Assembly (NCBI GenBank): GCA_018902545.1
Contig: JAHIQM010000016.1
Span: 310,001-374,000 of the forward strand
Direction: 5' to 3'
DNA from: Pseudomonadota bacterium
GTDB taxonomy: Bacteria; Desulfobacterota; Desulfovibrionia; Desulfovibrionales; Desulfomicrobiaceae
Length of the DNA: 64,000 bases
The translations under genes and the position numbers were made by a program. Of this stretch, positions 13,067 through 58,244 are shown in pieces; the stretch's first letter is position 1; each line of letters begins with the position of its first letter. The notes under the pieces were generated by a model. It worked only from the letters and a program-made list of their open reading frames with translations, did no database searches and was not told the origin of the DNA.

Positions 13067-13300
13067 CTAGCTGCTCAGAATTTTTTTCAATTCATCGACA
13101 GTCGGCACTTTGCCGACAAGCTTGAGTTCTCCGTCCACGACCAGCCCCGGGGTCATCATCACGCCGTAAGCCATGATCTGGTTCACGTCCGTGACCTTCT
13201 CGATCTCATACGCTAGGCTCAGGGAGTCCGCCGCAGTCTTGACGGCCTCCGTCAGTTTCACACACTTGGGGCACCCGGTGCCCAGGATCTGAATCTTCAT
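13067..13300 (-). CDS. Small thioredoxin-like protein (CPKC)
   Basis: 77 residues, minimal thioredoxin/glutaredoxin-like fold: strand MKIQILG, active site CPKC (C10, C13), helix, and a probable cis-proline at MMTPGLVVDG. Proteins of this type (MTH895-like) often accompany ArsR regulators and permeases in arsenic islands, where they may deliver thiols or bind the metalloid. It follows the permease gene by 30 bp in an arsR-permease-trx operon. A similar protein is encoded at 15673 in the divergent unit. Confidence 0.85.
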   Translation of the reverse strand: MKIQILGTGCPKCVKLTEAVKTAADSLSLAYEIEKVTDVNQIMAYGVMMTPGLVVDGELKLVGKVPTVDELKKILSS

Positions 13301-15672: not shown

Positions 15673-15909
15673 ATGAAAAAAGTTCACGTCATGGGCCCTG
15701 GCTGCCCCAAGTGCACCGAGACCTTCAAGATCGTCGAAACGGCCATTGCTGAAACCGGCGTGGAAGCAAGCCTCGAAAAAGTCACGGACTTCACCGAGAT
15801 CGCCAAATTCGGCGTGTTCACCACCCCTGCCGTGGCCGTGGATGGCACGGTCAAGGTCATGGGCAAGGTGCCCAAGAAGGCCGACGTAGTGGCCTGGCTG
15901 ACCGCCTAG
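15673..15909 (+). CDS. Small thioredoxin-like protein (CPKC)
   Basis: 78 residues from ATG 15673 (MKKVHVMGPGCPKC). Same minimal fold as the protein at 13067: CPKC active site, helix, then VFTTPAVAVDG with a probable cis-proline. It is cytoplasmic, as there is no signal peptide. It lies after the arsR at 15153 and before a periplasmic thioredoxin and CcdA, so it may be the cytosolic electron donor or thiol carrier of that chain. Confidence 0.85.
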   Translation: MKKVHVMGPGCPKCTETFKIVETAIAETGVEASLEKVTDFTEIAKFGVFTTPAVAVDGTVKVMGKVPKKADVVAWLTA

Positions 15910-16413: not shown

Positions 16414-17117
16414 TGGACCAGTTTCTGATCCTCATCCACCAGTGGATGGGGTCCGGACTGGCCTTGGCGGCTCTGGGCTGCTTCTTGTGGGGGATGGTCA
16501 GCGTGCTCTTCAGCCCCTGTCACCTGGCCTCCATCCCCCTGATCGTGGGCTATGTGGCCGGGCAGGACAAACTGGTGGAAGGACGGCAGGCCGCGCTCTA
16601 CGCGGGCCTCTTCACCTTTGGCCTGTTCCTGACCATCGCCGCCATCGGCGTGATCTGCGCCCTGCTTGGCCGGATGCTCGGAGACGTGGGCCCCTACTGG
16701 ACCATCGTCGTCGGGCTCATCCTGTTGTGGGTGGCCATGGACATGCTGGGGGTGTCCAAGTGCTCCATGGGCGGCAACCTCATGGGCCGCTTCAAACTGC
16801 GCGGCATGAGCGGGGCCTTTTTGCTCGGCCTGGCCTACGGAATCCTGTCGGGCTCCTGCACTTTTGGCTTCATCGCGCCCATCCTGGCCATCATCACGGT
16901 GCAGGAAAAGATCATGACCGGCATCATGCTCATCGTCCTCTTCGGCCTTGGGCACTGCATCCCCATCGTCATCGCTGGCAGCTCCACCGCCCTGGTGCGC
17001 CGCCTCATGGCCAACGCCTCCTGGCAGCGCGGCGGCACGGCTTTCCGCCGCATTGCCGGAATCCTCATTGGTCTCATGGGCGTCTACTTCATCGCCCGCC
17101 CGTTCCTGCCCGTCTGA
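16413..17117 (+). CDS. CcdA/DsbD-type transmembrane thiol transporter
   Basis: About 234 residues, six membrane helices. CcdA proteins carry electrons from cytosolic thioredoxin to periplasmic thioredoxins through two membrane cysteines. Here one is in FSPCHLASIPLIVGY and the other in LSGSCTFGFIAPIL, at the expected pseudo-symmetric positions. The preceding gene encodes its likely periplasmic partner. The stop codon lies inside the first unit of a 14-bp tandem array. GTG 16410 is an alternative start. Confidence 0.9.
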   Translation: MDQFLILIHQWMGSGLALAALGCFLWGMVSVLFSPCHLASIPLIVGYVAGQDKLVEGRQAALYAGLFTFGLFLTIAAIGVICALLGRMLGDVGPYWTIVVGLILLWVAMDMLGVSKCSMGGNLMGRFKLRGMSGAFLLGLAYGILSGSCTFGFIAPILAIITVQEKIMTGIMLIVLFGLGHCIPIVIAGSSTALVRRLMANASWQRGGTAFRRIAGILIGLMGVYFIARPFLPV

Positions 17118-53488: not shown

Positions 53489-53758
53489 TCAAGAATTGGG
53501 ACGATTCTCTACGTCGGCTTCCAGCAGCATTCGCACGTAGCGCGTATATGGGATTCCCTTGGCCTTGGCCTTGGCTTTCACCGCTTCCAGCAGCCCCACG
53601 GGAATGCGCATGTTGAGCGCCGCAGCCTTGGGTTCAATTTCAAATCGCATCGGTTTGAAACCGGAAAGGTCATACTGCGACAGGTCGGCCTGCTCGACAA
53701 ATTCCTCGGCTTCTGCATCGTTATGCAGCGATGGCATCTGCTTAGATTTGGCTTTCAT
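53489..53758 (-). CDS. brnA: BrnA-type antitoxin
   Basis: 89 residues. N-terminal acidic part and a C-terminal ribbon-helix-helix region (NMRIPVGLLEAVKAKAKAKG, IPYTRYVRMLLE) typical of BrnA. It would bind BrnT and repress the operon. It overlaps brnT by 17 bases, downstream of it, in the usual toxin-first order. Confidence 0.88.
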   Translation of the reverse strand: MKAKSKQMPSLHNDAEAEEFVEQADLSQYDLSGFKPMRFEIEPKAAALNMRIPVGLLEAVKAKAKAKGIPYTRYVRMLLEADVENRPNS

Positions 53759-54026
53759 AGTGAGAAATCTCCTTTTTATGCATGTAGCGGGCGCTGATAG
53801 GACGCAGTTTTATCAAGCCGTCATTCTCCCTCAGCATGAAAACGAGGAAAACATACCGTCCTGCTTGAGTTTTCCCAATGGCCCTCATACGCGATTCATC
53901 GGGGCACGGGTCCGGCAATACTGCTGGCTCGCCAAGCAGCACCTGCTCAATCTCTTCTCGGGATACGCCGTGCTTGCCGCATTTCGGCCAGTTACCGCTA
54001 TCCCACTCGAATCCCGCAATCTTCAT
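53742..54026 (-). CDS. brnT: BrnT-type toxin (RelE-like ribonuclease)
   Basis: 94 residues. N-terminal FEWDSGNWPKCGKHGVSREE is the BrnT hallmark (FEWDxxKxxxNxxKHGV), and the later strands (GRYVFLVFMLRENDGLIKLR, PISARYMHKKE) complete the RelE-like fold. It cleaves RNA and is neutralised by BrnA. The start lies at the edge of a tauE pseudogene, so the module appears to have entered there. Confidence 0.88.
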   Translation of the reverse strand: MKIAGFEWDSGNWPKCGKHGVSREEIEQVLLGEPAVLPDPCPDESRMRAIGKTQAGRYVFLVFMLRENDGLIKLRPISARYMHKKEISHYESQI

Positions 54027-54440: not shown

Positions 54441-54483
54441 AATGGTTGTTTATACGCTTATTTTTATGCCGTCCGGAGTCATC

Positions 54484-54813
54484 ATGAATCACGACGCCGA
54501 TCTCACGGGGATGGAGCAGCCCCTGGCCGACCTGGCCTTTCTGGCCCGGGCCCTGTCCGACGAAAACAGGCTGCGCATCCTGCTCCGCATCGGGACCGAC
54601 AGGTTGTCCGTCACCCAGATCGCCGAAGACCTGGGACTGTCCCAGCCGCTGGTCTCGCATCATCTCAAGGAGCTCAAACGGGCCCTGCTGGTTGATGTCG
54701 AACGCCGGGGGCCGTTCATTCATTACGGAATCAGCCGACCGGAGGTCCTCGACGTCCTCCGCGCCATCGGCAACCTGGCCCGGCGGCTCATCGCGAGCAG
54801 GACAAGCTTCTAG
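54484..54813 (+). CDS. ArsR-family regulator without cysteine
   Basis: 109 residues from ATG 54484 (MNHDADLTGMEQ), GGAG six bases upstream. Helix-turn-helix: ARALSDENRLRILLRI, LSVTQIAEDLGLSQPLVSHHLKEL, wing at RRGPFIHYGI. It contains no cysteine at all, so it cannot use the thiol sites of ArsR, SmtB or persulfide sensors such as SqrR. It heads the selenoprotein operon and probably represses it; the signal is unknown. Confidence 0.85.
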   Translation: MNHDADLTGMEQPLADLAFLARALSDENRLRILLRIGTDRLSVTQIAEDLGLSQPLVSHHLKELKRALLVDVERRGPFIHYGISRPEVLDVLRAIGNLARRLIASRTSF

Positions 54814-54887: not shown

Positions 54888-55337
54888 ATGGATGAGCTCA
54901 AAAGCATGCTCGAACGCATGGACCCGGCCCAGGCCGCCACATCCGTGGCCCTGGCGGCACGGGAACTCTTCCCGCTGCTCGGTGAGGAAGATCGGCGCGA
55001 ATTCATCGAACGCATGCTCGGTGAACCCGGCGAGGACAAGGTTGTCGGGATGGTCCATCTCTGACTGGCCGAATGCATGGACGAAGGTGTCGATCCAACA
55101 AAGATGTGTCAGAGTTTAGTGGATAAAGTGGCCCAATCGCGGCAATTGATGGCGCTCGCGCACCCCGAAGTGCTCGGTCTCTTCGAGGATTGGCTCGAAG
55201 AACTGGAAGAGGAGGTTGTCCGGCTCGCGGCCATGGGTCCGCTCAACCCGCAAAACCTTGCTGGCAGAACAGGCCTTTCAAAGGCCGGGGCGCAATTCAT
55301 CCTGACCAAACTGAGGCGCGAACAAAGAATAGAATGA
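54888..55337 (+). CDS. Putative selenoprotein with U59 (unknown family)
   Basis: 149 residues if the in-frame UGA at 55062-55064 is read as selenocysteine (GMVHLU-LAECMDEG). AAGGAG lies six bases before ATG 54888. The frame is open on both sides of the UGA, with similar helical, acidic character. Before it: ERMDPAQAATSVALAARELF; after it: a helix with DEGVDPTKMCQSLVDKVAQS and EVLGLFEDWLEELEEEV. The C-terminal NLAGRTGLSKAGAQFILTKL resembles a short helix-turn-helix. C63 lies four residues after U59. A hairpin at 55078-55097 fits a SECIS. Read as a stop, it would give a 58-residue product and an orphan frame with no ribosome-binding site. Confidence 0.75.
55078..55097 (+). promoter_or_regulatory. 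bSECIS candidate for U59
   Basis: TGGACGA - loop AGGTG - TCG(a)TCCA: seven base pairs with one bulged A. The loop starts 20 nt after the UGA and carries G at positions 2 and 3, within the known limits for bacterial SECIS elements. Confidence 0.7.
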
Positions 55338-55347
55338 GGTGCACGTC

Positions 55348-57081
55348 ATGAACGCCAGAGCCACTTTCGCACTGATCGCCGTCGCGGTGCTTTTGTCCAT
55401 CGGCTTGATCCTGATGACGGACAGAGCCACCACAACCCCCACCTGGGACGACGCCGTTGGGGAAGCCCAGCGTGGAGGCTACAGGCTGCTGACCACCGAT
55501 GATCTGAAAAAACTCTACGAGGACCGGACACCGGACCTGCTTCTGGTGGACACCCGCCAGGATTGGGAACACCGGACCGGCCATATCGAGGGATCGGTCA
55601 ACTTCTCCATGGAGCCCACGGCCTGGGCTCGATGGACCAAGCGCGGGGATATCGAACGGCTGCTCGGACCGGACAAGGACAGGCCCGTCGTCTTCTACTG
55701 AGCGGGTCTGACCTGAGTCCGCAGCGACTCGGCGGCCCGGGTGGCCGTCTCCCTCGGTTACAGGAACGTTTACCGCGACCCCAAGGGCTTTCCCGACTGG
55801 CAGGCCGCCGGACTCCCCGTGGAGACAGGTCCGGTTGCATCACCCTCCGCGCAGGCCGCTGACGATCCGGGACCACTTTCGGGGTGGACCATGGTCTGGA
55901 CCCTGCTCGGCATCTTCCTGGGCGGGATGGCCCTGAACCTGACTCCCTGCGTCTATCCCCTGATCCCCATCACAGTCTCGTATTTCGGCGGCCGGTCGGG
56001 CCACTCCGGGAGCCTTGTGGGGCATGGCATCCTGTACATGGTCGGTCTGGCCCTGACGAACTCGGCCCTGGGCGTCGTCGCCGCCCTGACCGGGGGCATG
56101 ATGGGGGCCATGCTGCAAAGCCCGGTCGTGCTGATCGGCATTTCATCACTCCTAGTAATTTTTGCCACTAGCCTGTTCGGATTCTGGGAACTGCGCCTGC
56201 CGATGGCTCTTACGCGGGTCGCTTCAAAGTCCCATGCGGGCTACTTCGGAACCTTCTTCATGGGCCTGACCCTCGGCGTCGTGGCCGCGCCATGCCTCGG
56301 GCCCTTCGTGCTGGGCCTTTTGACCTGGGTCGCGGGCATGGGCAGCGCCTGGATCGGCTTCGCCGTGTTCTTCACGCTTAGCCTCGGCCTTGGTCTGCCT
56401 CTTTTCGTCCTGGCCATGTTCTCGGGGAGGATCGAAAAACTCCCCCGCTCCGGCGAATGGATGATCTGGGTCCGCAAACTCATGGGCTGGGTTTTGCTGG
56501 GCATGGCCGCATACTTCATCCGCCCGCTCCTGTCCGAAAGCGCCTCGATTCTGACATTGTCCGCCGTCGCTCTGGCCGCGGGCATCCACTTGGGGTGGAT
56601 CGACAAGGCCACGGCAGGCTTTGCGGCTTTCAAATATATCAAGCCCGCAATCGGCGTCCTGGCCATCACCGTCGCAATAGTTCTCTCTGGCTCATGGCTC
56701 CTGCGCGGTCCGGGCGTGACCTGGGAGCAGTATTCACAAACCCTGCTCGACGAGGCCAAGGCGGCGGGAAAGCCGGTCATCATCGACTTTTCGGCCACAT
56801 GGTGCGCGCCTTGCCGCGAGCTTGACGAAAAAACGTTTCGCGACCCGGCGGTAGTGCGCATGACCCAGGACGACTTCATCATGATCAAGGTCGACCTGAC
56901 CCGTGGAGGCAATGCCGAGCACGAACGTCTGATCTCGGCGTACGAGGTGAAAGGCGTCCCGACGGTCATCTTCATTGACGCGCAGGGCAGGGAAAGGAGG
57001 GATTTGCGACTCGTCGACTACCTGCCGCCCGACGCTTTTGTCCAACGCATGGAAAACCTGAAAAAAACGAACGAGGAGTGA
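55348..57081 (+). CDS. Selenocysteine rhodanese-DsbD-thioredoxin fusion protein
   Basis: 577 residues if UGA 55699 and UGA 55714 are read as Sec (U118 and U123). ATG 55348 has GAGG eight bases upstream. Domains: an N-terminal anchor (about 5-24); a periplasmic rhodanese (LLLVDTRQDWEHRTGHIEGS, then VVFYUAGLTUVRS, then LGYRNVYRDPKGFPDW), about residues 45-160; a DsbD-beta membrane domain with C201 (NLTPCVYPLIP) and C316 (VAAPCLGPF); and a C-terminal thioredoxin with C486-x2-C489 (WCAPC) and cis-Pro at GVPTVIF. Both Cys of the usual rhodanese CxxxxC loop are Sec. The rhodanese takes the place of DsbD-alpha, so electrons from the cytosol would reach a selenium-based sulfur-transfer site. Confidence 0.85.
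55713..55732 (+). promoter_or_regulatory. bSECIS candidate for U118
   Basis: CTGAGTC - loop CGCAGC - GACTCGG: seven base pairs including one G-U. The loop starts 18 nt after UGA 55699-55701 and has G at position 2. The left arm contains the second UGA (55714-55716). Confidence 0.65.
55731..55749 (+). promoter_or_regulatory. bSECIS candidate for U123
   Basis: GGCGGCC - loop CGGGT - GGCCGTC: seven base pairs including one G-U. The loop starts 21 nt after UGA 55714-55716 and has G at positions 2-4. It shares two bases with the hairpin for U118, so the two cannot both be fully formed at once. Confidence 0.7.
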
Positions 57082-57083
57082 CG

Positions 57084-57395
57084 ATGCTCAAGGTCCATTT
57101 GTTCCTGAACGAGCCCAACGGCAAACCCTGAAAACATTTTCTGGAGATGCTGCCCAGGTTGGGCGCAAAATATGACATCGAACTGGAAGTGACCTCCCAG
57201 CCCAACGCCCAGTACCAGACTGACGAGTATTTCGACCTTGAGCTCCCTGTAGCTCCGGCCGTCATGGTCGGTGAAGAGGTAGTGACCGAAGGCTCGGACA
57301 TCGCCGAAGATAAGCTCGAAGCCGCAATACGTCGGCACCTCGACCTGCCCGAACTGCCGCGCAAAGGTTTCGTGAGCCGCCTACTGGGCGCATGA
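57084..57395 (+). CDS. Thioredoxin-like selenoprotein with U16
   Basis: 103 residues if UGA 57129-57131 is read as Sec: NGKPUKHFLEMLPRLG. GAGGAG lies just before ATG 57084, two bases after the previous stop. The first strand (KVHLFLN), the redox residue at the start of helix 1, and a proline before a strand (LELPVAPAVMVGEEVV, a cis-Pro position) give a thioredoxin/glutaredoxin-like fold with a lone Sec and no resolving Cys. It is cytoplasmic, and may reduce the DsbD part of the preceding fusion or carry selenium or sulfur. The frame has no Cys at all. Confidence 0.78.
57148..57167 (+). promoter_or_regulatory. bSECIS candidate for U16
   Basis: TGC(t)GCCC - loop AGGTT - GGGCGCA: seven base pairs with one bulged T. 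The loop starts 24 nt after the UGA and closely resembles the loop of the U59 element (AGGTG). Confidence 0.75.
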
Positions 57396-57437
57396 GGCCC
57401 TGACAAGCAGGAAAAACTGGCGTAACACTTGGAAACC

Positions 57438-58244
57438 ATGGATGGGGAAAACATATTCAGACTCGGGGCCTTCATACTGACGGCCATGCTCATGGCCGCC
57501 CTTGAAATCGCCCGGCCGCGCAGACGGCCCGATCCGGACCGCAAGGGCCGCTGGGTGGGCAATCTCGGCGTGGTGGCCGTGTCCACGGTACTCGCGCGCC
57601 TCGTCTTTCCCATCGTACCCATGGCTCTGGCCGCCACGCTCCGGGGCCAGGGCCTGGGAATCTTCCCCTTCCTCGGCCTGCCCCTGGCCGCAGAGTTCCT
57701 TCTGGGCATTCTCATCCTGGACCTGGCCATGTACGCCCAGCACCGCGCTTTCCATGCCTGGCGGCCGCTGTGGAGGTTGCACCGCATGCACCATGCGGAC
57801 ACCTTCTTCGATTTCTCCACCGGCGTTCGCTTCCATCCCTTGGAAATCCTCATCTCCATGGCCTTCAAACTCGCCCTGGTGGCCCTGCTCGCACCGCCTC
57901 CCCTGGCCGTTTTAGCCTTCGAGATCATCCTCAACAGCGCCGCGATGTTCAACCACGCCAACTTCTTCCTGCCCCTCCCCCTGGACCGCGCCCTGCGCCT
58001 CATCCTGGTCACGCCGGACATGCACCGCATCCACCACTCCACCGACGGCAAGGAAATGAACAGGAACTTCGGCTTCAACTTTCCCTGGTGGGACCGGCTC
58101 TTCTCGACCTACCAGGATCAGCCCGCCGGGGGCCACGAGAACATGCCGCTGGGCATGAACATCTTCCGAGAAGCCAGATACCGCTCCCTATTCAGGATGC
58201 TGGCCATGCCATTCATGAATCCCAGCTCAGGACGCAAAAAATAA
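57438..58244 (+). CDS. Fatty acid hydroxylase/sterol desaturase-family membrane protein
   Basis: 268 residues from ATG 57438 (MDGENIFRLGAF); TTG 57429 is a weaker choice. Membrane diiron enzyme: histidine boxes HRAFH, HRMHH (WRLHRMHHADTF) and HRIHH (PDMHRIHHSTDG), with four to six helices. Such enzymes hydroxylate or desaturate lipids with O2, which is unexpected in a strict anaerobe. It lies 42 bases after the selenoprotein operon on the same strand and may be cotranscribed. The substrate is unknown. Confidence 0.85.
   Translation: MDGENIFRLGAFILTAMLMAALEIARPRRRPDPDRKGRWVGNLGVVAVSTVLARLVFPIVPMALAATLRGQGLGIFPFLGLPLAAEFLLGILILDLAMYAQHRAFHAWRPLWRLHRMHHADTFFDFSTGVRFHPLEILISMAFKLALVALLAPPPLAVLAFEIILNSAAMFNHANFFLPLPLDRALRLILVTPDMHRIHHSTDGKEMNRNFGFNFPWWDRLFSTYQDQPAGGHENMPLGMNIFREARYRSLFRMLAMPFMNPSSGRKK

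Follow-up and report, generated by a model that had tools for sequence, protein, structure and literature searches.

The locus examined here raises the question of what a small thioredoxin-like protein does with one selenocysteine (Sec) and no cysteine. The initial annotation of the window (the whole 64,000-nucleotide stretch analysed, from a Desulfomicrobiaceae contig) had placed such a protein immediately 3′ of a gene for a rhodanese/DsbD fusion protein, and translation bears out the description. The frame opens with ATG at 57084 and ends with the terminator TGA at 57393-57395, contains GKPUKHF, and encodes Sec16 with no further Cys or Sec (Table 1). The GAGGAG site and the 2-nt distance from the fusion gene, whose stop codon lies at 57079-57081, to the ATG are likewise present in the sequence.

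The protein belongs, with near certainty, to a family that already has a name. Residues 2-87 align to positions 1-86 of the 87-position NCBIfam model NF045708.1 (TsoC) with 144.9 bits, where the curated cut-off is 45 bits, and the family motif NEPxGxxU is present with a TGA-encoded U. In a 2026 review, TsoA, TsoB and TsoC are catalogued and Tso is expanded as "three selenoprotein operon", with credit to Haft and Tolstoy (2025); the TsoC described there shares with the window protein its family, NEPxGxxU, the position of Sec and the operon partners (PMC13188914). The family, the operon, which belongs to bacteria of the sulfate-reducing type, and the Sec site have thus all been described previously. 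A Pfam search of the window TsoC returned no match, and no Rfam family reached its gathering threshold anywhere in the 64-kb window.

Table 1. Features of the tso locus in the window (positions are those of the whole stretch).
Feature	Position	Strand	Description	Basis
tsoR	54442..54813	+	ArsR-type regulator	NF045707.1, 129.6 bits (cut-off 115)
tsoA	54888..55337	+	149-aa selenoprotein, Sec59 in LULAEC, TGA read through	
tsoB	55348..57081	+	Membrane protein: rhodanese/DsbD transmembrane/thioredoxin	NF045694.1, 978 bits (cut-off 805)
tsoB residues			Rhodanese Sec118, Sec123; transmembrane Cys201, Cys316; thioredoxin Cys486, Cys489	
GAGGAG	57073..57078	+	Likely tsoC ribosome binding site, 5 nt 5′ of ATG	Sequence
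tsoC	57084..57395	+	103-aa thioredoxin-fold (predicted) selenoprotein, Sec16, stop included	NF045708.1 match and translation
Sec codon TGA	57129..57131	+	Residue 16, motif NEPNGKPU (context GKPUKHF)	
SECIS hairpin core GCCCAGGUUGGGC	57152..57164	+	Within codons 23-27 of tsoC	
Hydroxylase gene	57429..58244	+	Fatty acid hydroxylase family membrane protein (PF04116), 3′ of tsoC	

Several lines of evidence bear on how codon 16 is read. The TGA is read as selenocysteine because the same genome encodes SelA (617.9 bits), SelB (360.9 bits) and a tRNA-Sec with anticodon UCA (87.4 bits), all of which exceed their cut-offs. Codon 16 is TGA in 45 of the 47 loci read, the exceptions being L043, which has TAA, and L018, a frameshifted tandem copy. 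A phylum-wide search of 395 genomes found a TsoC match in 31, and exactly one TGA is present in 41 of the 42 matches, the remaining one being a 27-bit outlier. Protein conservation in the homologue alignment extends to both flanks of the TGA, and conservation of the in-frame TGA far exceeds chance. The TAA of L043 (at about 6046) stands above an intact hairpin (CCC GGG CTG GGC) in a gene whose C-terminus has diverged, and may reflect sequencing error, decay or unusual recoding. At L006/L018 (G029, 346317-348062) the end of tsoB and tsoC are duplicated in tandem, and the second copy is frameshifted past the Sec codon.

The hairpin downstream of the TGA constrains the codons in which it lies. 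At residues 24-27, proline is encoded by CCC in 43 of 44 cases (background 37%) and arginine by AGG in 37 of 37 (background 13%), while leucine is written only as CTG or TTG and glycine only as GGC or GGT. Pairing of the 5-bp stem is kept in 99.6% of pair cells in the homologue alignment, although such hairpin counts overstate the number of events because related sequences are not independent. Two double compensatory changes were found, C-G to U-A in L017 and G-C to C-G in the second copy of L039. Bacterial SECIS rules call for a loop of 3-9 nt with G in the first two loop positions, a stem of 4-16 bp, a distance of 16-37 nt from the UGA and a minimum free energy of at most -7.5 kcal/mol (PMC13188914); the window hairpin, with its 5-bp stem, loop GGU, spacing of about 25 nt and -14.1 kcal/mol over 51 nt, conforms to them. 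The Sec codon and the hairpin are also altered together: in the first of two tandem tsoC copies at L041 (5610-5867), TGC (Cys) replaces the Sec codon and the stem is broken by a change of CCC to ACC, whereas in L036 the corresponding copy has both the TGA and an unbroken stem.

On this sequence evidence, the TGA is a selenocysteine codon served by its own SECIS hairpin, and the selenoprotein assignment of the initial annotation stands. A mechanically called ORF does exist at 57147-57395, and were the TGA an ordinary stop, the true product would be the 82-residue protein that begins at its ATG. This has next to no probability, as relatives share a conserved stretch over residues 1-15 (with N9, P11 and G13 invariant) and strand 1 would be missing from so short a product. 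The ORF was rejected as a real product on account of this conserved N-terminus, the conserved TGA, the locked SECIS and the substitution of a Cys codon in L041.

The fold of TsoC was approached through an AlphaFold2 model (pLDDT 91), which comprises a strand at 2-10, a helix at 14-29, a strand at 32-40, two strands at 59-62 and 65-69, and a helix at 75-85. A Foldseek search of solved structures found thioredoxins nearest (best E 7e-4), and structural comparison gave thioredoxins Z scores up to 9.6, with E. coli thioredoxin (2trx) at Z 8.6 and rmsd 2.8 over 81 residues. TsoC is thus predicted to have a thioredoxin fold, and Sec16 comes third in the 14-29 helix; the model and the structure matches agree with the fold and with the placement of Sec at the N-terminus of helix 1 that had been proposed earlier. 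Alignment to thioredoxin-like families, which had been suggested as a check, revealed only weak similarity, and a sequence search of solved structures with TsoC returned nothing significant (best E 0.12). Invariant residues in the alignment of relatives include N9, P11, G13, Sec16, P55 and P58. Pro58 falls on the cis-Pro site of Thioredoxin_3 in a weak alignment (42.9% probability); in the predicted beta-alpha-beta/beta-beta-alpha arrangement it would be the cis-Pro that precedes strand 3.

These alignments matter chiefly for the register of Sec16. By comparison with thioredoxin, the third residue of the helix is the expected place of the second position of CxxC. In a non-significant hmmsearch alignment to PDIA4 (E 0.54), the two Cys of CGHC are matched by Gly13 and Sec16, in that order. 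Because this weak alignment, the motif spacing and the position in the model helix agree, Sec16 most likely occupies the second rather than the first position of the ancestral CxxC, with Gly at the first (GxxU). Active sites of 'cxxC' layout are recognised as a class, with peroxiredoxin 5 (TxxC) given as an example (PMC2757866), and the GxxU of TsoC is probably an arrangement of this peroxiredoxin type, with a single reactive residue at the second position.

TsoC can be compared to several thioredoxin-fold families. With thioredoxin and Thioredoxin_3 (PF13192) it shares the fold, the cis-Pro site at Pro58 and weak profile similarity, but these have a dithiol CxxC where TsoC has GKPU. The window protein has no Thioredoxin_3 match at the gathering cut-off, and among 43 relatives there are 16 weak matches, with E 0.0019 at best. 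Elsewhere in the window, two Thioredoxin_3 proteins with an ordinary CxxC are encoded at 13076-13300 (minus strand) and 15679-15900 (plus strand), near a DsbD-like gene at 16440-17114. Selenoprotein W/Rdx (PF10262) is, like TsoC, a small thioredoxin-like protein with Sec last in a four-residue motif, and the SelW-like structure 2p0g matches the TsoC model with Z 9.0 and rmsd 2.0 over 72 residues. The SelW motif is CxxU rather than GxxU, however, and profile-profile comparison of TsoC with PF10262 (hhalign) detected no similarity (probability 0.6%). Monothiol glutaredoxins (CxxS) also combine a thioredoxin-type fold with a single reactive residue, but theirs is at the first position and that of TsoC apparently at the second. 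Since the weak PDIA4 alignment, together with the helix position, puts Sec at the second Cys of the motif, the likeness to monothiol glutaredoxins is probably the wrong comparison.

A lone Sec had been taken to imply a monothiol-type mechanism, with a cysteine elsewhere in homologues named as evidence to the contrary. Such a cysteine does occur, though not universally: position 83, in the last helix, is Cys in 31 of 43 relatives. It is Arg in 11, and Cys83 is therefore not essential. At least one Cys besides Sec is found in 37 of 45 homologous full ORFs, and 8 members, including the window protein, have no Cys at all. Judging from these counts, the lone Sec is the minority state among relatives, most of which carry the Cys83 that the window copy lacks. 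The monothiol picture is weakened by the 37 ORFs with an extra Cys but remains plausible, and in the 8 Cys-free members one-selenol chemistry must at least suffice. In relatives that have it, Cys83 could resolve Sec.

The genomic setting of tsoC provides further clues. As read from the sequence, the window holds a complete TsoR-TsoA-TsoB-TsoC operon, with tsoA-tsoB-tsoC spanning 54888-57395 and TsoR upstream. The order R-A-B-C is repeated among the loci of relatives, which supports the proposed operon with the rhodanese/DsbD fusion. TsoA scored 126.6 bits against NF045695.1 (cut-off 170) in a scan confined to the partial ORF 3′ of its TGA; its LULAEC motif is conserved among homologues, a Pfam search of TsoA gave no match, and its AlphaFold2 model is weak (pLDDT 70, pTM 0.48). 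Wherever the rhodanese motif of TsoB was read it contains two Sec, and TsoB keeps the DsbD-type Cys pair. TsoR has no conserved Cys among relatives, and the window copy is Cys-free. The fatty acid hydroxylase gene recurs 3′ of tsoC at L004, L011, L013, L015, L028, L029, L045, L048, L073 and L085, and has no obvious link to selenium chemistry. A BrnT toxin and a CopG-type antitoxin (PF04365, PF12441) are encoded on the minus strand at 53489-54026, just 5′ of the operon.

The fixed co-production of TsoC and the fusion protein suggested by the initial annotation is not upheld among relatives. Across 63 loci the gap between tsoB and tsoC has a median of 18 nt, does not exceed 30 nt in 50 and is exactly 2 nt in only 10, and in six genomes (G003, G693, G711, G635, G370 and G476) TsoC is present but no TsoB is recognisable. 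One of these, G003, is of the same genus and retains TsoR, TsoA, TsoC and the hydroxylase together with short remnants of the ends of tsoB. At its locus (L015, 952-1505), nearly all of tsoB is deleted between intact tsoA and tsoC. At L045, tsoB is reduced to a C-terminal fragment, and G574 and G348 have just a Sec-free DsbD-like part in place of TsoB. A Nitrospirae contig carries two tsoC beside ArsR genes with tsoB absent, and a tandem second tsoC is common among loci. At L044 (1384-2061), an ArsR-rhodanese fusion adjoins tsoC on a contig without adjacent tsoB, which is found elsewhere in that genome. Since TsoC is present where no TsoB can be recognised, it is more than a mere TsoB accessory.

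The reading preferred here, held at a probability of about 0.5 from sequence and model, is that TsoC would act, by means of one selenol, as a reductase or carrier within a pathway of thiols or persulfides. A scan for hydrophobic segments found none in TsoC, and the protein is presumably cytosolic, since it has no signal or membrane segment. The selenolate of Sec16 would attack a substrate at an electrophilic group, either sulfur, selenium or a peroxide, and the intermediate so formed would be a selenosulfide or a selenenyl species. As the window protein has no resolving residue, regeneration would fall to an outside thiol or selenol, which could be that of TsoA (LULAEC), of cellular thioredoxin or, where present, of the TsoB DsbD-type relay. 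Gene order is what suggests TsoA as a partner.

Other roles for TsoC can be envisaged. A dedicated cytosolic electron donor to the TsoB DsbD-type relay, substituting for thioredoxin, would account for the position of tsoC directly 3′ of tsoB in most loci (the 50 of 63 with a short gap) and for the paired transmembrane Cys that TsoB retains from DsbD (Cys201 and Cys316). This role is nonetheless unlikely, as the six genomes without a recognisable TsoB speak against it and one residue alone cannot carry two electrons in the window protein. Selenocysteine is a strong peroxidatic nucleophile, which would favour a peroxidase in which Sec16 is reduced by an outside thiol in a one-residue mechanism. 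GxxU would fit the cxxC layout of peroxiredoxin 5 (PMC2757866), but TsoC is much smaller than peroxiredoxins, lacks their PxxxT/SxxC motif (Asn9 stands at -7 and Gly13 at -3) and has neither an invariant Arg near the site nor a Pfam peroxiredoxin match, all of which make a peroxidase rather improbable.

Sec16 might instead be a metal or metalloid ligand, a role suspected for other selenoproteins from SAO-like systems, and TsoC a small metallochaperone or a sensor partner governed by the ArsR-type regulator. A regulator of ArsR/SmtB type would suit this role, one soft ligand carried by a thioredoxin fold could serve, and metal binding is held possible for the Sec of SaoB, SaoC and UXX-star proteins (PMC13188914). 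Against it, TsoR has no conserved Cys, unlike Cys-based metal sensors, no second invariant metal-binding residue was seen in the TsoC alignment, and both the fold and the neighbouring TsoB point to redox chemistry; metal binding is accordingly judged doubtful. Finally, TsoC and TsoA could form the core of a cytosolic selenol relay (GxxU and LULAxC) to which TsoB is optional, with the lone Sec at the peroxiredoxin position carrying persulfide or selenide between proteins, so that TsoC would be a sulfur/selenium transfer protein and not a reductase; this is rather improbable.

Whichever substrate the proposed one-selenol reductase or carrier would serve, what the analysis adds to the named family is evidence for the SECIS, a pair of copies with Cys and Sec, a Cys83 that is optional, and the occurrence of TsoC independently of TsoB. 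These details narrow the tests to be made of TsoC, in which no redox residue but Sec is near-universal and Sec probably occupies a peroxiredoxin-type position. The window copy, where Sec stands alone, would be a clean object for asking whether one selenol suffices.
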